Source: Selenomonadaceae bacterium (lineage in GTDB: Bacteria; Bacillota; Negativicutes; Selenomonadales; Selenomonadaceae). From it: a stretch of 44,810 nucleotides of DNA. A program made the position numbers and the translations under genes. Location: assembly GCA_017477125.1 (NCBI GenBank), contig JAFUXN010000127.1, positions 1 to 44,810 of the forward strand. Reading direction: 5' to 3'. The notes under the pieces were generated by a model, which ran no database searches, had not been told where the DNA came from, and was given only the letters and a program-made list of their open reading frames with translations. Below are positions 37,146 through 44,810 of this stretch, piece by piece; the stretch's first letter is position 1, and each line of letters begins with the position of its first letter.

Positions 37146-37508
37146 GTGGAAGTTAAGTACGAAGTCACGATCACGGCAGTCGGTTCGCAGGCTCGAGAGT
37201 TCCTCGACAACAACAGCAGCGTCATTCTGCTGGACACGGGCAAGCATCCCAACCTCGCCGACATGGTTGTCGAGCACAGCGTCGGTGAGCTCAAGGCTGA
37301 TATCGAAGTCGGCGACAAGCTCAAATTCGGCAACACCGATTTCAAAGTGACGAAGGTCGGCGACGTGGCGAACAACACCATCCGCGAGGCGGGGCACTGC
37401 ACGATCCTCGTCAACAAGGAAGGCGCGTTGCCAGGTCAGATTTCCGTCAAGGGCGTCATGCCTCCGCGTCTTCGCGTCGACGACGTCATTCGCTTCTTCA
37501 AGAAATAA
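37146..37508 (+). CDS. PTS glucitol/sorbitol-type enzyme IIA protein
   Basis: A 120-aa protein of the PTS EIIA-Gut family, comparable in length to E. coli SrlB. Shared features are the opening YEVTITAVGSQA, the VVEHSVGEL segment aligned with the phospho-His region of SrlB, VTKVGDVANNTIREAGHCTI and the C-terminal VDDVIRFF. GTG at 37146 with a strong AAGGAGG. No IIB, IIC or sorbitol dehydrogenase gene is near, so this orphan IIA may be regulatory or may serve a transporter encoded elsewhere. It lies between ssrA and a terminator shared with the nrdG-larA junction. Confidence 0.85.
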   Translation: MEVKYEVTITAVGSQAREFLDNNSSVILLDTGKHPNLADMVVEHSVGELKADIEVGDKLKFGNTDFKVTKVGDVANNTIREAGHCTILVNKEGALPGQISVKGVMPPRLRVDDVIRFFKK

Positions 37509-37524
37509 TTTCAGGCTCGAAATA

Positions 37525-37562
37525 AAAATGGCGCGGCTCCCACAACGGGGGTCGCGCTTTTG
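37525..37562. terminator. Bidirectional terminator between the PTS IIA gene and the helicase-TIR gene
   Basis: An A-run (37525-37529), stem GCGCGGCTCCC / GGGGGTCGCGC with an ACAAC loop, then TTTT. The element and its 3' flank match 21496-21539 with one mismatch. It stops the IIA transcript on the plus strand and the defence-like operon on the minus strand. Confidence 0.85.
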
Positions 37563-37577
37563 AATTTCAATCGAGCA

Positions 37578-40500
37578 TCAGCCCTCCTCCACACGCTTGA
37601 GGAAGTCCTTCAACGTCTTGTTTAATCCGCCTTCGCTCAACGATGTGCTGTAACCGTCGTTGGCTCTATATTTCTCATGATATTTACAGTGATCAGTGTT
37701 CGGCGGGTTCAACAACCAAAGCCGACGCCTCCCCTTCAGTGTCGACAACCGTTCGATAATCGCCGCCAGCTCCTTCTTGCAATTGACGCTGTCCGCGCAA
37801 TCGTAATACTCATCGTCGAGAAGAATGAAGAACGCGCATTCCTTGTACTTTTCCAGCGTCCATGGTTGAGCTCCGTCGCCGTTAAACTCATGGCTTGCGC
37901 AATCGCTTTGGTCGAACAGCACCAAGTCTTTATATTTTTCCTCCAGCCCGGCAACAAATTTCTTCAATAGCCGAACGCCCTCGCGCTCATTGTCAAATTG
38001 CCGCTCGTGTGCGTACGACACTCCGATTAGATATTTTTGATCGCGCCACTTCCTCAACAGCAGTCGGAACCCGATGCCGATGTCCTCTGCGAAATTTCTC
38101 GTGGTCTCGCAATGGGCGAACGGCGCGCCCCATTCTTCAAATTCCTCCCTCGAGCGACATATCCCATATGTCCGTCGATAGCCGTCCTTCCCGAGCCCGT
38201 AACAAAATTTATCCAGACTGCTGAAGCTCCTCACCGTGCTCCGCGACAAGAACAGTAGCGTCGGCTCGTCGGGTCTTTGCTCCCGCTCCGCACCCAACGC
38301 CTCGCCCCAGGATAATTCCCGATACTCGATCCCAACTTCCTTGAGCACCTTCCTCAAATCGTTGAGCGCCGCCCAATTGCGTTTGTCGCACAGCAATCGA
38401 ACACGCTTGTCGCCCTCGATCTCCTCCGAATTGTGCTCATAGTTCTGTAGCAGCTGATTCAAATTCTTGAGATTCGGTCTGAACACGCCGTTGATATCCC
38501 ACAACAGCGCCATCAACATCTTGCCCTTGAAATCCGTTATCTTGATCGAGTGAGCGAGTAGCCACACAAACGTTTCGTATGTCATTGCCGACAAATTATT
38601 TTTCAGCCCGTCGAGCGCCTCATAATCTTGCCGTACCTCATTGAGTTTCTCGTCGAGCTCCGCCGTCAACAGGATCACTTTGAATTTGCCCGCCCGCTTG
38701 CTCGCCCGCTTGAATTGATTTTCGTACTCCGCACCAATCTTGCCGCTTGCCTTGTCGTTGAGCGCTATCAAGAAGAACGTCTTGTCGTTGCACTCGAGCA
38801 TCGCAAAGTTTTTGTCGGCAATCGGGAAATCCAATTTGATGTTGTCGCCGAAGATATGATCCCTCTCCTCCGATTCAAGTTCGTTGAGGAAAATCTTGCT
38901 CAAGCTCGGTAGCACACATTTGTCGTCGCGAGCCGATTGATCCGCAAGCAAATTCTTCAGCGCGTCCTCAACCTCGTCGCTAAGATTCGTCAAATCCCTC
39001 TTGATCGCCTCAAACAAATTTTTGATGTCATTGTGCTCGCTCGATTCGTCTATCCGACGTAGCAACTCCTCACATATCTCGCCACTGATTATCTTGAGTA
39101 TCCTGGCGGGATCATTCTTCCAAAGGTCGCGCAACATCGCCGCCACATCATCATCGTACCGCTCCGGATACTCCCTGCACAGATTGTAGAGATCAAATAT
39201 CGCCTTCCGCTCGAGCTTGGGCACATTCTTGTTCGCTATGCGCACCAAATTCCGCGGTACGCCGTAGTTTACTTGAGTCGACAGTCGATAGAGACGCGGT
39301 AATAAGATCAAGAGGTTGGTTGTGTTCCTGCCGCGCTCGCGGTACTCCGTTCGACTGATCGCTTCGAGCTGATACGCGACAATTTCCGCCAACCGCGCGA
39401 TGTCGCCGACCACCAGCGGCAATTTAAATTCGGTCTCCTCCTCAATTTTTTCGATTAGATCGCCGCGCGTCCAATGCCACAAGATGATCGCTCGCATCAG
39501 CGGATTGATGTATCTGCTCTCATAGATCCAATCGCAATCGTCATTAACCGCCAGTTCCAACGTGCTGTCCTTCCAAAACTTGCAATGCCCTGCTTGATGC
39601 ATTTTCTTGAGCGCCTTCAAGACTGCCGCCGACGCCTTGCGCGATTCCTCAAGACCGTTGGGGATGCTCACTTGCGGAAATCCGATCACCTCGGGTGTTT
39701 GGCACAAAATATAAAGCATGTCGAGCAGATAACCTTTGAGGCTCAGCTCATCATTCGTCGTGTCGAACGGCAGACCGCCCTGTCCGTCCTCCAATGCCGT
39801 CTGCTTCTCCTTGTAGCCGCCGTTAAAAAAATATCGCCTTATCTTGTTGCACGTCTTGATGCCAAACGCATACGCCGCCAATCCTCTCCCGAAGGGTGTC
39901 AGCTCATAGTGCTCGAGCTCATCATCGTCGTCACTGCTCTTGGGTCGACACAGCTTTGCCTTCATCAGCACATCGCACATCTTTTGAGCGTCAATCGCTC
40001 GACCGCCGCACTTGCACGAAAAACTTTCCTCCCAAAACGACTGCACCGTTTCAGACGTGTAATCATCGCCGCACTCGCTCAACAAACTCAAATAATACGG
40101 CGCTTGACCGATCTCGGGCTCGTCCTTCAGCGATGATACAATGTCCTCCTTCAACGAATTAACGTAGCCGTTCCAAAAACGATGCGCCTCATCGTCCTTG
40201 GTCGCGATGATGAAACTCATGCCGCTCTTCATGTTCTGTTGCCCCAAACGACCCGCGCGCCCGACATAGTTTTTATACTCTTGACCGGTGAGCGGCTGAG
40301 CGTGTTGAGTGGTGTCGCCCTTCTTTCGAGGCACTTCATTGTCGAAGATGATCATCACATCGACCGGCATGTTCATCCCGACGGTGAGCGTTTCAGTCGC
40401 CACCACCAATCGCAACGAATCCTCCGCGCCGTCAAACAGCTCCTCAATCAACTCGCGCAATGCCGTAGACATCGCCGCGTTGTGGCATGCTATCCGACGC

Positions 40501-41672
40501 GGGAACAATCGATTGCGGAGCAGTTTCTGATACTTGTCGACGTCATAGTTTTCGATCCGTGAAAGCCTCTCGCTCATCTCGAGCCGCGGCAAAATCTTAT
40601 CGTCGGCAATCTGGTTCGCAATGTAATCCGCCAGGTATCGGGTTCGCTCGCGCCCGTTCACGAATACCAATACCTTCGCCTTGCGATTCCGCGCATAAAT
40701 CTCCCTCAACAGCGCCTTTAACAAACGCCTCTTGGGCTCGTCGGAACGCCCGCCCCTGAGCTCTACGTAATCGGGAACGGATATCTCACCGCGATACTCC
40801 AATCTGCCGCCCTCGTCATTGAGCTTCTCAGACTTGCCATATGGGCTGAACTCCTTAATATTGTCCTCGCCCCGGCTCGCCGACGCCCTGTAACTGCCGT
40901 CGGTCAGTATCACATGCTCGAGTAGTGAGGTCGGGCGCATCTCGTTTCGGATCACTATCGGAGAGTTACTATCGATCGTCAACCACTTCTCTATGAAGCT
41001 CGCATTGCAATCGCACGTCGTCAAACACATGATCCGCGTCAAAGTTTCGTTGCCGCCCAGCGCATTTCGACGCAACACCTTTTGGATTGCCACCTCGAGT
41101 TTGGGACCGCGGTCATGCTTGTTGAGCATCTGCAGTTCGTCGACCACCAGCAGACGGCATTTCTTCAGCATCTTGCCGTTCGACTGCAACAGCATGGCAA
41201 AGAACTTCTCATAGACGATCACCGCGATGGTGTAATCGCCTTCAACGATCTCACCATCGTGATCCAAGTAGTCACTGCTCGATGCATATATCCCGGTCGT
41301 CCCCTGCGCCTCAAGGTCTTTGCGTAATTGATTGCACCGCTCGCGAACCATCGCCTTCAGCGGCACCAGCACGATGCATTTGTTTTCGGGATCGTTCTCG
41401 TGCTTTAGAGAGTCGAGGATCGCCATCTCGCTGATCAAAGTCTTGCCGGCGCTCGTCGCGCCCTGCACCACGATGTGTCGATTCTCCTCATGCTCCGACA
41501 GCCAGAAGCCTTTGGTGTCGAAAAGCGCCATCCGTTGAAGACCGGTGTATTCGGTTTCGTCGGGCGATATCCCCATCGAACGCGCCAGCCTCTCATTGAT
41601 CGCCTTCAACGCGTCGGCGCTCAACTCATGTCGCTCCCTGATATCCTTGAAATTATCGATCTTAATGCCCAT
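37578..41672 (-). CDS. Ski2-like SF2 helicase with C-terminal TIR domain
   Basis: A 1364-aa protein. Helicase core (about 45-500): Q-like TGLQRMALF, motif I GATSAGKT (71-78), Ia VPLKAM, motif II VVDELQML (Asp178-Glu179), III CLTTCDC, IV VLVFVNGRERTRYLADYI, V ATETLTVGMNMP and VI YKNYVGRAGRLGQ. Then come long helical and winged-helix-like regions, an unassigned alpha/beta segment (about 960-1210), and a TIR domain (about 1210-1330): LIGVSYAHER (strand A), LVLFDQSD, CAFFILLDDEYYDCADSVNCKKELAAI, where Glu near 1300 in CKKEL is the expected NADase residue. ATG at 41672 with GGGGGAG, 32 bases after helicase A. The fusion of RNA/DNA helicase with TIR suggests nucleic-acid-triggered NAD+ cleavage; this is inference. 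Confidence 0.85.
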   Translation of the reverse strand: MGIKIDNFKDIRERHELSADALKAINERLARSMGISPDETEYTGLQRMALFDTKGFWLSEHEENRHIVVQGATSAGKTLISEMAILDSLKHENDPENKCIVLVPLKAMVRERCNQLRKDLEAQGTTGIYASSSDYLDHDGEIVEGDYTIAVIVYEKFFAMLLQSNGKMLKKCRLLVVDELQMLNKHDRGPKLEVAIQKVLRRNALGGNETLTRIMCLTTCDCNASFIEKWLTIDSNSPIVIRNEMRPTSLLEHVILTDGSYRASASRGEDNIKEFSPYGKSEKLNDEGGRLEYRGEISVPDYVELRGGRSDEPKRRLLKALLREIYARNRKAKVLVFVNGRERTRYLADYIANQIADDKILPRLEMSERLSRIENYDVDKYQKLLRNRLFPRRIACHNAAMSTALRELIEELFDGAEDSLRLVVATETLTVGMNMPVDVMIIFDNEVPRKKGDTTQHAQPLTGQEYKNYVGRAGRLGQQNMKSGMSFIIATKDDEAHRFWNGYVNSLKEDIVSSLKDEPEIGQAPYYLSLLSECGDDYTSETVQSFWEESFSCKCGGRAIDAQKMCDVLMKAKLCRPKSSDDDDELEHYELTPFGRGLAAYAFGIKTCNKIRRYFFNGGYKEKQTALEDGQGGLPFDTTNDELSLKGYLLDMLYILCQTPEVIGFPQVSIPNGLEESRKASAAVLKALKKMHQAGHCKFWKDSTLELAVNDDCDWIYESRYINPLMRAIILWHWTRGDLIEKIEEETEFKLPLVVGDIARLAEIVAYQLEAISRTEYRERGRNTTNLLILLPRLYRLSTQVNYGVPRNLVRIANKNVPKLERKAIFDLYNLCREYPERYDDDVAAMLRDLWKNDPARILKIISGEICEELLRRIDESSEHNDIKNLFEAIKRDLTNLSDEVEDALKNLLADQSARDDKCVLPSLSKIFLNELESEERDHIFGDNIKLDFPIADKNFAMLECNDKTFFLIALNDKASGKIGAEYENQFKRASKRAGKFKVILLTAELDEKLNEVRQDYEALDGLKNNLSAMTYETFVWLLAHSIKITDFKGKMLMALLWDINGVFRPNLKNLNQLLQNYEHNSEEIEGDKRVRLLCDKRNWAALNDLRKVLKEVGIEYRELSWGEALGAEREQRPDEPTLLFLSRSTVRSFSSLDKFCYGLGKDGYRRTYGICRSREEFEEWGAPFAHCETTRNFAEDIGIGFRLLLRKWRDQKYLIGVSYAHERQFDNEREGVRLLKKFVAGLEEKYKDLVLFDQSDCASHEFNGDGAQPWTLEKYKECAFFILLDDEYYDCADSVNCKKELAAIIERLSTLKGRRRLWLLNPPNTDHCKYHEKYRANDGYSTSLSEGGLNKTLKDFLKRVEEG

Positions 41673-41704
41673 TGCCGGCACTCCCCCATCGCAATTCGTC
41701 TCGA

Positions 41705-44005
41705 TCAAATTTTGCTCTGATACGTCAGCGCCTCGGTCAGCTCGTTGAGCCAAGCGGTTGCCTCGATAAAGCGTTCGGTCGTGAGCTCCTGCCTCAACAA
41801 TCGCTTTTTGACGCCCGACGCCAACGGCAAACTGAATTTGATCACGTCGAGACGGTAGCAAACGATCTCCAACAGCCGACGCATCTGCTCGTAATAAATT
41901 TTAAAGCCGTCGAACATCACCGTGGTCGAGCACGCCGAGCTCCGCCACAACAGGATCGACGCCAACAATCTCAACGCCTTGAACTCGTCCTCGTCGAAGA
42001 AATTATATTGTCGAGCGCCGAATCGTCGGGTGTATCTGCTCACCGCGCTCAACAATTTATTCAACAGCTCGGGACTCGTCCAATCGGCGAAGTACCGAAA
42101 GATTTTCCTCATCGCCGCCAGCGAGTTCCTGATGAATAAAATATCTCTGCCGTTCGGATCGAAATTCCCTACAATGACGCCGCCCTGCCCCAAGATGCCT
42201 TTCGTGTTGACGATTATGTTGAGCATGTCGACCTCGAAAAATTTCTCGGGCGTGACGAAATTTCTGATCGAGTTCAACAGGTCCTCGAAATCGCTGATGA
42301 GGATCACGTAGCCCGCCAGTTGCCTGCCGACGTCGGTGGCGGCGTACTCGGGTTCGTCCTCGTCGTCGACGTCGTCATCATTGATCTGCTGAATGAGTTT
42401 GAGCTCGAGCAATTTGGCGATCGGCTCGTCGCAAAAATAATTTTCGTTGAGGCGTTTGGAGGAGGGCAACGGCAATCCTCTCAACAGAAATTTTATATCG
42501 GATTGCTTGATGCCCGATGACGTTTGCGCATTCGAATTCGAGAACAGGCTCAAAATATAGAACGGCAGATATCCGCGCTCGACGCTCAACAGTTGGCTGA
42601 AGGTGCGGTCGGGTTCGTTGACCTTGCGATTGAGCGCCTCCCATAAATTTCTCTGATCGTTGGGTCTGCCCTCAACGCCGAAGTACTTTGATTCAAGGAG
42701 CGGGTAGACGTAGCCGACGCATTTTTGTTCGGGCAGCGACGGGTTGAGGCGTCCCGCTCTGCCCGCATAATTCATGTACTCGTTTGGATAGAGGAAGCGG
42801 AGTTCGTTATGAATGCCGCGGTCGTAGGCGCGTTTCTTCATGCGCGGAATGATCACGACGTCGGCATTGCTGTTGACGCCGTAGGCGAGCGTTTCTGTAC
42901 TGCAAACGATCTTGAGCTTGCCGTCGACGGCGAGGAAGTCCTTCTCGATCAGATATCGCATGCTCAGAGGAATGTTGGCGTTGTGATAGCTGATGCCGTG
43001 GGCGAACGCTCGATAGTCGTCCTCGTCCATGGTGCCGTAAAGAATATCGTCGGCGTCCGCTTGGATCGAGCGCAAGATGTAATCGCGGCACTGCTCCTCA
43101 TCGATCCATGGTGTCAAGATGCCGCGCTCGACGAGTTCTTTCAAGAGTACCTTCGACAGCTCGCGAACCTCCTGCCGATTGTTGAGGAAGATGAGAATTT
43201 TATCGCCGCGTTTGAGGTGGTGAATGCAGATGGCGGTGACGATGCCGTTGACGCGATTGATAAAGCGTTTGTCGTAACCATCGGGGAAGTCGACCGTCTT
43301 CACCGGCTCGCAATCCGTCTCGACGTGTTTAACGCCCGTCTTGTTGTAGAAGATCGGCAGGGTCTTGAGCTCGACGGGGCGGGTCAACTCTCTGATCTCG
43401 GTGAATTGAAACTTATCGATGTACTCTCGCCAATCGTAGAAGGGAGTGCCCAACGCGATCACTCTCAACTCTTGGTGGCGTCGAGCGCGGAGCATGATGA
43501 AATCGGTTTTGATGCCGCGGTTGACGTCTTGAGCGAGAGCGATCTCGTCGAGGACGATCAGATCGTACTTGTCGAGGAAAGTTTGATCGGCGGAGGCGAA
43601 CATAAAAATTTTCTCGTTGATGATGACGGCGATATCGACCTTGCCGGCGATGATGCTTGGATCGTCGAGAAGATATTCGCTGGTCGATTGAACGATCTTG
43701 AGGGACAGATCGAGTTTGCGCGCGAAGTCTTTGATCTCGTCGAACTTTTGAGAGGCGAGCGCTCGATAGGGGACGGCGAACAGCATTCGATAGGGGCGAC
43801 CGCGTTCTGCTGCCAACTGCTGTTGTCGGAAGTAGCTCAACAATGCGATGAGAGTTTTGCCGGAGCCGGTGGTGCCGATCACGAACAGCCACTTGCCGAC
43901 GTCATAGAAGTCGGGGCAATCGAAAGCCTTCCGTTGAAGGTCGGTGAGCTCATTGAATCCGGCGCGCGTCGCCAACGAATTGATGTCCGATCTGTCGTTC
44001 CCCAT
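41705..44005 (-). CDS. Ski2-like SF2 helicase, partner of the helicase-TIR protein
   Basis: A 766-aa DEAD/DEAH-type helicase. Motifs: LTDLQRKAFD (Q-like), motif I GTTGSGKT (44-51), Ia VPYRALASQ, motif II VLDEIALAQD (Asp153-Glu154), III ALGTPF, IV ILIFLNNRQEVRELSKVL, V CSTETLAYGVNSNADVVI and VI YMNYAGRAGRLNP near residue 412. The C-terminal about 330 residues are helical, with an acidic DDDVDDEDEPEY linker, and have no recognised domain; there is no TIR or nuclease. It is clearly a distant paralogue of the downstream helicase. ATG at 44005 with GGGAGG, 20 bases after the RyR gene, so the three genes form one operon. Confidence 0.85.
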   Translation of the reverse strand: MGNDRSDINSLATRAGFNELTDLQRKAFDCPDFYDVGKWLFVIGTTGSGKTLIALLSYFRQQQLAAERGRPYRMLFAVPYRALASQKFDEIKDFARKLDLSLKIVQSTSEYLLDDPSIIAGKVDIAVIINEKIFMFASADQTFLDKYDLIVLDEIALAQDVNRGIKTDFIMLRARRHQELRVIALGTPFYDWREYIDKFQFTEIRELTRPVELKTLPIFYNKTGVKHVETDCEPVKTVDFPDGYDKRFINRVNGIVTAICIHHLKRGDKILIFLNNRQEVRELSKVLLKELVERGILTPWIDEEQCRDYILRSIQADADDILYGTMDEDDYRAFAHGISYHNANIPLSMRYLIEKDFLAVDGKLKIVCSTETLAYGVNSNADVVIIPRMKKRAYDRGIHNELRFLYPNEYMNYAGRAGRLNPSLPEQKCVGYVYPLLESKYFGVEGRPNDQRNLWEALNRKVNEPDRTFSQLLSVERGYLPFYILSLFSNSNAQTSSGIKQSDIKFLLRGLPLPSSKRLNENYFCDEPIAKLLELKLIQQINDDDVDDEDEPEYAATDVGRQLAGYVILISDFEDLLNSIRNFVTPEKFFEVDMLNIIVNTKGILGQGGVIVGNFDPNGRDILFIRNSLAAMRKIFRYFADWTSPELLNKLLSAVSRYTRRFGARQYNFFDEDEFKALRLLASILLWRSSACSTTVMFDGFKIYYEQMRRLLEIVCYRLDVIKFSLPLASGVKKRLLRQELTTERFIEATAWLNELTEALTYQSKI

Positions 44006-44025
44006 GAGTGTGTCGCCTCCCGCGT

Positions 44026-44325
44026 TTAAGTCGAATCGTTACGAGTTATGTTGAAGCCGAGCTTGACGATGAGCTTGAGGGTTTCCATGGCGGTGCGGCG
44101 ATCGTAAATTTTCTCGGCATCGGGCAGTTGGGAGTAGGGCACCAGGCATGGAGTTTGTTTGAGTTGATCGTCGCGAGTGTCGCCGTAGGTCCAGCCGTCG
44201 CTGATACGAGTCGCCGCCCAGACCTCGTGGACGTTCTCGGCGATCAGTTCGGTGAGCCGGATCAGTTCGGGGCTCAGCTCGACGTCGTTGGTGTCGATCG
44301 GTTGAGGCGAGTAATATTTGTTCAA
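44026..44325 (-). CDS. Stand-alone RyR-domain protein
   Basis: A 99-aa protein that is essentially a single RyR (ryanodine-receptor repeat) domain: PQPIDTNDVELSPELIRLTE, LIAENVHEVWAATRISDGW, TYGDTRDDQLKQTPCLVPY, LPDAEKIYDRRTAMETLK and LIVKLGF. These are the family's hallmark positions (NVHEVWA, GWTYG, PCLVPY, EKxYDR). TTG at 44325 is the start, with AAGGAGG 8 bases upstream. It is the first gene of the operon with the two helicases. Bacterial RyR domains have been predicted by comparative genomics to bind nucleotide-derived signals in conflict systems; with a TIR domain in the same operon, an ADP-ribose-type ligand is a reasonable but untested guess. Confidence 0.9.
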   Translation of the reverse strand: MNKYYSPQPIDTNDVELSPELIRLTELIAENVHEVWAATRISDGWTYGDTRDDQLKQTPCLVPYSQLPDAEKIYDRRTAMETLKLIVKLGFNITRNDST

Positions 44326-44414
44326 CGGTTGAGCCTCCTTTCGATGATAGAAGAATTATGGGTGGCGGGAAAAAATCCTGCCGCTCCAATCAAAATTTGT
44401 TCAGTCGAAGATAT

Positions 44415-44810
44415 AAAAGAAGGCGTCGCCGCCGTGTCGCGTGGCGGACGACGCTGTATTCTCCGCTCAAAAAATTTTAGCCTCTGCTACATGAAAGGGC
44501 GCGCCGCCCCTTCGAGAGGCGGTCGCCCATCTTTTACCGTCGTCCCATAAAAAAGGCGTCGCTGCCGGTTCGCGGGGCGGACGACGCCAGCTCCCTCCGC
44601 CGTACAAAAATTTTTAGCCGTGCCATGTTGAATACGGTGAAAGTCGACCAAAGGAGAAGGGCGAGCCGCCCCATGCCGAGGCGGTCGCCCATCTTTCATC
44701 GCCGTCCCATAAAAAAGGCGTCGCCGCCGATTCGCGGGGCGGACGCCGCCGGCTCCCTCCGCCGTACAAAAATTTTTAGCCGTGCCATGTTGAATACGGT
44801 GAAAGTCGAC
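44415..44810. repeat. Tandem repeats with two palindromes per unit, no gene
   Basis: One unit runs 44549-44710 (162 bases), and the next copy starts at 44711 and continues past the window edge with few differences. A shorter, more diverged copy lies at about 44415-44548 and lacks about 30 bases of the unit. Each unit has a hairpin of the type GGCGTCGCCGCC / GGCGGACGACGCC after an A-run, an AAAAATTTTTAG block, and a second hairpin GGGCGAGCCGCC / GGCGGTCGCCC. The second hairpin resembles, in the opposite orientation, the left-edge palindromes at 18-346. Small open frames here are by-products of the repeat. Between 44326 and 44414 there is only the upstream region of the RyR gene, with no convincing promoter. 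Confidence 0.85.

Follow-up and report, generated by a model that had tools for sequence, protein, structure and literature searches.

The closest described relatives of the operon reported here are Thoeris, the phage RyDEP family, the Card1/Can2 accessory nucleases of type III CRISPR, and Hachiman. The operon consists of three minus-strand genes, encoding a stand-alone RyR domain (RyR), a Ski2/Hel308-like helicase (HelA) and a second such helicase with a putative C-terminal TIR domain (HelTIR). It lies on a 44,810-nucleotide contig of a Selenomonadaceae bacterium (GCA_017477125.1, JAFUXN010000127.1), the whole of which is termed the window. As in Thoeris, a TIR protein stands beside a candidate effector for an ADP-ribose signal, which in two related loci (L006 and L008) is a ThsA-type TM-macro protein. 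However, HelTIR joins its TIR domain to a Ski2-like helicase and has a further helicase as partner, and in place of a SIR2-SLOG or TM-macro ThsA the window lineage has a Card1-type nuclease with an RyR-like part, encoded on another contig. The TIR signal maker of Thoeris has a counterpart in HelTIR by motif and profile comparison, with weak fold support and a negative Pfam result. Judged by its sequence, the operon appears to resemble Thoeris in its working, and we do not class it as a member. With RyDEP the window shares an RyR domain in which the H..W pair and the D are spaced identically, but this domain is host-encoded, lies in or near TIR operons and, within the genus, has threonine or serine at the position of His100. 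The effector has the Card1-like endonuclease with its NE.DC...ECK motif, but differs from Card1/Can2 in carrying an N-terminal kinase-like part (in four of six effectors), Rossmann-like and RyR-like parts, and in its linkage to TIR genes. Finally, the window helicase cores score against Hachiman HamB and PADLOC PDC-M23B, and the HelTIR profile also matches solved HamB, but the window has a TIR output and two helicases. No HamA-type partner was found in a Pfam scan confined to the three window proteins, nor among the PADLOC matches listed, namely the best 25 of 30 and of 34 for the two helicases, RyR having no match. In the literature on RyR, TIR and Thoeris, on helicase-TIR proteins and on Card1 with Thoeris, as covered by title and abstract and with two relevant works, Yirmiya 2025 (on later Thoeris types) and Burroughs 2015, outside the comparison, we found no description of this gene set, and it is possibly a new virus-defence operon.

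We favour, with modest confidence, a reading in which the window carries that part of a Thoeris-like TIR immune operon which senses the invader and makes the signal, and in which the effector would be an RyR-like nuclease. The compact arrangement described in the initial annotation, with gaps of 20 bases between RyR and HelA and 32 bases between HelA and HelTIR, agrees with the coordinates, as do the stand-alone RyR domain and the two Ski2-like helicases with their matches. RyR (44026..44325, 99 aa) begins with a TTG codon after a AAAGGAGG stretch and matches Pfam PF02026 at 1.8e-35. HelA (41705..44005, 766 aa) and HelTIR (37578..41672, 1364 aa, with a middle region between helicase and TIR domain) both exceed the Pfam cut-offs for DEAD and Helicase_C, and the profiles closest to them are of Hel308/Ski2 type. 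The start of HelTIR was taken as the ATG at 41672; a longer open reading frame from 41861 would overlap HelA. Walker A (codons from 43876 in HelA), the DExx box and the GRAGR motif (from 42769 in HelA) are kept in both proteins, as in Ski2/Hel308-like helicases of superfamily 2. The DExx boxes of the two read DELQ and DEIA, unlike the usual DExH form.

The proposed fusion of a helicase to a TIR domain is supported by motif and profile, and not by Pfam. Across all seven HelTIR homologues the C-terminus keeps the pattern G.SY.H ... D ... Y..C..F..LDD.Y ... C..E, which we take to be a TIR signature; in the window the domain spans 37581..38060 on the minus strand (start approximate), and its candidate catalytic residue is Glu1301 (codon 37772-37770, checked). 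Profile comparison (hhalign) of this region with three Pfam-confirmed TIR domains gave E=9e-5 and a probability of 59%. In a control with 17 segments along HelTIR and five along HelA, the C-terminal HelTIR segment alone scored (1.7e-4), its two neighbours giving 0.011 and 0.063 and all others 0.14 or worse. The structure model of the C-terminus is of moderate quality (pLDDT 70.8, pTM 0.41; pLDDT about 80 in the TIR region), and Foldseek matched it to the TIR domains of TcpB (TM 0.51), TRIF (0.59), IL-18R (0.53) and MAL (0.50), also listing full-length C. elegans TIR-1 and SARM1, which superpose poorly. Several results tell against this assignment. Full-length HelTIR matched no Pfam TIR family at E<=1, seven C-terminal pieces returned stray Pfam families and no TIR, the TIR region found no TIR match by sequence in PDB, and an 11-sequence TIR profile failed to reach HelTIR at E 0.01. 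Moreover, the Foldseek TIR rows are weak (E 0.2-0.4, probability 0.89-0.97) and are outranked by unrelated rows, namely nicking endonucleases (TM <0.25, rmsd >25) and Hel308. The predicted fold taken alone is weak evidence; together, motif, profile comparison and weakly scoring predicted fold support a TIR domain too diverged for Pfam.

HelTIR homologues were fetched at seven loci from Selenomonadales, Oscillospiraceae and Lachnospiraceae (by record title). HelA lies upstream in six of them, the seventh (L007) beginning within HelTIR, and because this order recurs in three families the pairing is not due to chance. What follows HelTIR is exchanged at one slot. In L006 a TM-ThsA_Macro protein (PF20016, 2.5e-39; two hydrophobic stretches) overlaps the HelTIR stop by 4 bases, and in L008 such a protein (ThsA_Macro, 8.2e-35) likewise overlaps it, whilst in L007 a Card1-type nuclease overlaps it by 4 bases. 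Since two unrelated candidate sensors, macro and RyR, thus stand behind one type of TIR domain, that domain would be expected to make an ADP-ribose signal; this comparative point is our main argument for such a signal. The initial annotation had suggested looking for defence-island context and for co-occurrence of the families beyond close relatives. Homologues of NsnA, NsnB and NsnC, a known defence system, indeed follow in L006. HelA co-occurs with HelTIR across the three families, and RyR was found in only two of the seven genomes.

The likely effector is seen most fully in L002 and L003, where the order is nuclease, a gene for a 276-aa protein, RyR, HelA and HelTIR. The nuclease is a protein of 1191 or 1323 aa with kinase-like, Rossmann-like, RyR-like and Card1 endonuclease parts. 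In the source genome another contig, C67, ends with a homologue of this nuclease (61 and 55% identity over two stretches) and with a homologue of the 276-aa gene (79% identity) that is cut off by the contig end, with an order and orientation that would lead on into the window. We infer that the end of C67 and the window (C92) are adjacent and form one operon. Thus the three genes, which the initial annotation took as the whole system, are all present and yet probably make up an incomplete one, with the likely effector elsewhere in the source genome. The motif NE.DC...ECK is intact in all six effectors, and the Card1-like endonuclease passes the Pfam threshold in L002, L003, L007, L067, L091 and L093. 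Comparison of the RyR-like domain with the small RyRs gave E=1.6e-7, confined to that part of the protein in a control with segments along it, and the domain keeps H, W and H in 6/6 effectors. An equivalent of RyDEP D117 was placed by eye in five of the six, the automatic alignment putting this column elsewhere. An AlphaFold model of the effector (pLDDT 47.8) was too poor for use.

Two further families accompany the nuclease. The 276-aa protein (L002 4149-4979, L003 5936-6766, L067 13704-14361) has a conserved N-terminal part, which in our own reading may be PD-(D/E)xK-like, a glycine-rich, hydrophobic C-terminus and a weak PADLOC match to PDC-M72B; L004 holds its gene together with HelA and HelTIR and has no RyR. 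A gene for a 530-579-aa protein, for which there was no confident Pfam match, stands before the nuclease in four loci (L003 71-1810, L067 7948-9540, L129 4596-6254, L147 1270-2967), with another open reading frame in between in L147; the copy in L003 encodes 579 aa.

Co-occurrence was counted in 149 relatives, source genome included, of which 66 form the within-genus subset. At E<=0.001 HelTIR matched 13 genomes, of which five are true (9.8e-195 or better) and eight, weak partial helicase matches, were dropped. For the nuclease 87 matched, with eight true (1.5e-66 or better) and 79 dropped (best E 4.1e-9), the listed rows of which fall within the kinase portion of the profile. An RyR domain was found in 17 relatives; the seven in the genus were counted and the ten outside it, with RyR in frames of 403-931 aa, were dropped. 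All five HelTIR genomes carry the nuclease, three on the same contig (Fisher 9.8e-8; within genus 6.3e-6). The small RyR accompanies the nuclease in 6/7 cases (1.4e-8) and HelTIR in 3/5 (p=6e-4). Therefore, the small RyR is dispensable for the helicase-TIR pair and tracks the nuclease instead. The signal maker is exchanged as well: in two genomes of the same genus, without a HelTIR match, ordinary TIR proteins take its place beside RyR and nuclease. L093 holds nuclease pieces together with RyR and a Pfam-confirmed TIR protein, the latter two sharing a 4-base overlap. In L092/L129 a run led by two Pfam-confirmed TIR genes also contains the nuclease and a 579-type gene, and RyR and the 276-aa gene are divergent from it. 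In L093 (4162-7930, genome G043) the nuclease is split into three reading frames, those of RyR and TIR being open.

On the favoured reading, HelA and HelTIR would detect invader nucleic acid or its processing, and this would release the TIR domain, which would convert NAD+ to a signal of the ADP-ribose type. That signal would bind the RyR-like domain of the kinase-Rossmann-RyR-like-Card1-type nuclease, switching the nuclease on and stopping infection. The small RyR may bind or slowly turn over the signal, or pair with the RyR-like domain of the effector, and so set a threshold. The genes, their conservation, the swapping of signal makers and effectors, the retained candidate ligand and nuclease residues and the co-occurrence are observed here, whilst trigger, signal identity, effector activation, the part of RyR and phage defence itself are each presumed. 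The immune model of the initial annotation, with a TIR signal bound by RyR, fits the ADP-ribose-signal effector candidates beside HelTIR, the NsnABC genes beside L006 and the published finding that RyR proteins of phages bind signals of this kind (PMC13232231).

A number of observations weigh against the scheme. Effector and window operon sit on separate contigs. The effector's RyR-like domain matched RyR structures at E=6e-6 for a two-repeat chain and at 0.1-0.2 per repeat, the Pfam RyR model matched four of six effectors with a best value of 0.0043, below its cut-off, and a PF02026 search of the source genome returned the small RyR as its sole match, leaving the effector domain undetected. 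The counted genomes are related and fragmented, so that the p-values are rough and overstated, and RyR, as noted, was found in a minority of the genomes of the fetched loci. HelTIR was found in 2/397 and 1/400 genomes of two other families, all three already among the fetched loci. L091 has nuclease and RyR with no visible TIR gene, and L094 combines RyR with a 579-type gene only, neither nuclease nor TIR being seen. PADLOC matched none of the seven flanking proteins examined in L008, L130 and L002. Moreover, macro-type ThsA binds ADP-ribose (ADPR) and IAD and not 2'/3' cyclic ADP-ribose (2'/3'cADPR), according to PMC11204291, which also mentions His-ADPR as reported by other work. Macro and RyR effectors may therefore need different TIR products; if each sensor keeps its known ligand, the TIR product would differ between lineages.

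The searches for HelTIR and its partners elsewhere were mostly negative. Scans of viral contigs with the HelTIR profile, the effector and the HelA profile gave no relative, and a search of plasmid records with the effector gave no match. HelTIR itself matched 31 of 72,556 plasmid records, none over more than 80% of the query, and these were set aside, the best 20 of the 31 being helicases. In the fetched loci no further TIR gene was found except a weak antisense match in L003 (E=0.005), with a profile that also misses HelTIR.

The small RyR is close to B. theta 3nrt and to animal RyR repeats. The phage protein RyDEP hydrolyses 2'/3'cADPR, and six of eight homologues tested bind these signals without degrading them, as set out in a 2026 preprint (PMC13232231), which names H75, W78, H100 and D117 as key residues. 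By residue numbers in that text rather than by alignment to the RyDEP sequence, these correspond to H33, W36, T58 and D75 of the window, at identical spacing and with three of the four retained. Such a match, and the published hydrolysis and binding, would suit a small RyR that acts as a self-encoded off-switch, degrading the signal as a glycosidase or soaking it up as a sponge in the manner of phage RyDEP, rather than as a sensor or a partner of the effector. H33, W36 and D75 are invariant across 21 small or phage RyR sequences. However, position 58 is threonine or serine in all seven RyRs of the genus, and the ligand residues around His100 are required for degradation according to the same preprint (PMC13232231); the position is histidine in 3/3 phage and 2/2 gut records and T, N, D or H in nine others. 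The tracking of RyR with the nuclease rather than with HelTIR also speaks against an off-switch. We regard this role as possible but, on balance, rather doubtful; it concerns RyR alone and is compatible with the favoured reading of the operon as a whole.

Outside the genus, an RyR domain was present in 55/397 Lachnospiraceae genomes. Fourteen RyR regions (3.6-18 kb), from the 13 best-scoring of these genomes and one Priestia plasmid, were compared with 20 control regions, each 17 kb long and taken from four of those genomes. With a three-sequence TIR profile trained on the genus only, a TIR gene was found in 6/14 RyR regions and 0/20 controls (p=0.002); the eight regions that show none count against a general link, and among loci outside the training of the profile the figures are 2/11 and 0/20 (p=0.12). 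A further count of TIR genes near RyR (9/18 versus 0/20) was set aside, the profile having been trained on those loci. Eight TIR genes in five of the regions are Pfam-confirmed, the Priestia TIR gene being known by annotation. In L147 nuclease (Card1 match below the Pfam cut-off), RyR, 579-type gene and several TIR genes recur together. In the Priestia plasmid (L159, NZ_CP128553.1) a small RyR directly follows a gene annotated as an adenylate/guanylate cyclase, near a Pycsar effector gene, and the TIR gene lies on the other side of RyR, past two hypothetical genes. Two of the seven RyR-matching plasmid records were examined in addition to the 14 regions, and these two have no annotated TIR gene. 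Phages also carry RyR relatives, in 201 of 50,697 records, of which two cover at least 80% of the query. In Arthrobacter phage Argan (L184 424-1158) the RyR gene stands immediately before a gene annotated as a PnuC-like nicotinamide riboside transporter, in keeping with a link to NAD+. Another record labelled phage (L073, MT836850.1) looks bacterial by eye, with anti-sigma- and outer-membrane-like genes adjoining RyR. We put forward, tentatively and as something that falls a little short of an even chance, a bacterial cADPR-RyR axis in which a helicase-coupled TIR signal is read by an RyR-type domain within a nuclease, a counterpart of the link proposed in animals between cADPR and the ryanodine receptor, and in which phage RyRs would derive from or mimic such host receptors.

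The TIR domain could instead deplete NAD+ directly after helicase sensing, the neighbouring nucleases and macro proteins being separate defence genes of an island. TIR-STING works in this way (PMC13142454), and L005, whose contig ends 828 bases after HelTIR, shows no recognised effector in that interval. However, the 4-base overlaps of effectors with the HelTIR stop codon in L006 and L007, and the nuclease in 5/5 HelTIR genomes among the 149 relatives, make direct depletion unlikely. Nor do we give much credit to a signal, perhaps a cyclic oligonucleotide, read by a CARF-like part of the nuclease rather than by its RyR-like domain, with TIR as a second output. Parts of the effector do match CARF-PDDEXK and Can2-type proteins, the CARF part being seen by PADLOC profile coverage in L091 only. 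Nevertheless, the nuclease co-occurs with TIR modules and RyR, and general scans of the operon genes, with no search by name, recognised no oligonucleotide cyclase. An operon for DNA or RNA repair rather than immunity, which the Hel308-type helicase cores would suit, is very improbable in view of the patchy distribution, the TIR domain, the ThsA-type and nuclease effectors and the NsnABC neighbours in L006.

At its flanks the operon adjoins repeats, as first annotated: the contig end lies 485 bases upstream of RyR within G+C-rich repeats (44416..44810) of a dispersed family with 141 matches in the genome, query included, some near contig ends. These repeats may explain the contig break. The terminator with which the operon was said to end corresponds to a 12-pair hairpin at 37530..37558, listed on the plus strand. 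Terminator-like sites in 37400-44810 are not commoner than in shuffles (5 found versus 8.3 expected), and this hairpin is at most a plausible terminator.

If the favoured reading is true, RyR domains would be placed on the host side of TIR immunity, and TIR signalling would gain a trigger that senses nucleic acid. The old question of a cADPR-type signal acting on RyR domains would become directly testable in a small bacterial protein. The reading would also go some way to explaining the presence in phages of RyR proteins able to bind or destroy such signals.

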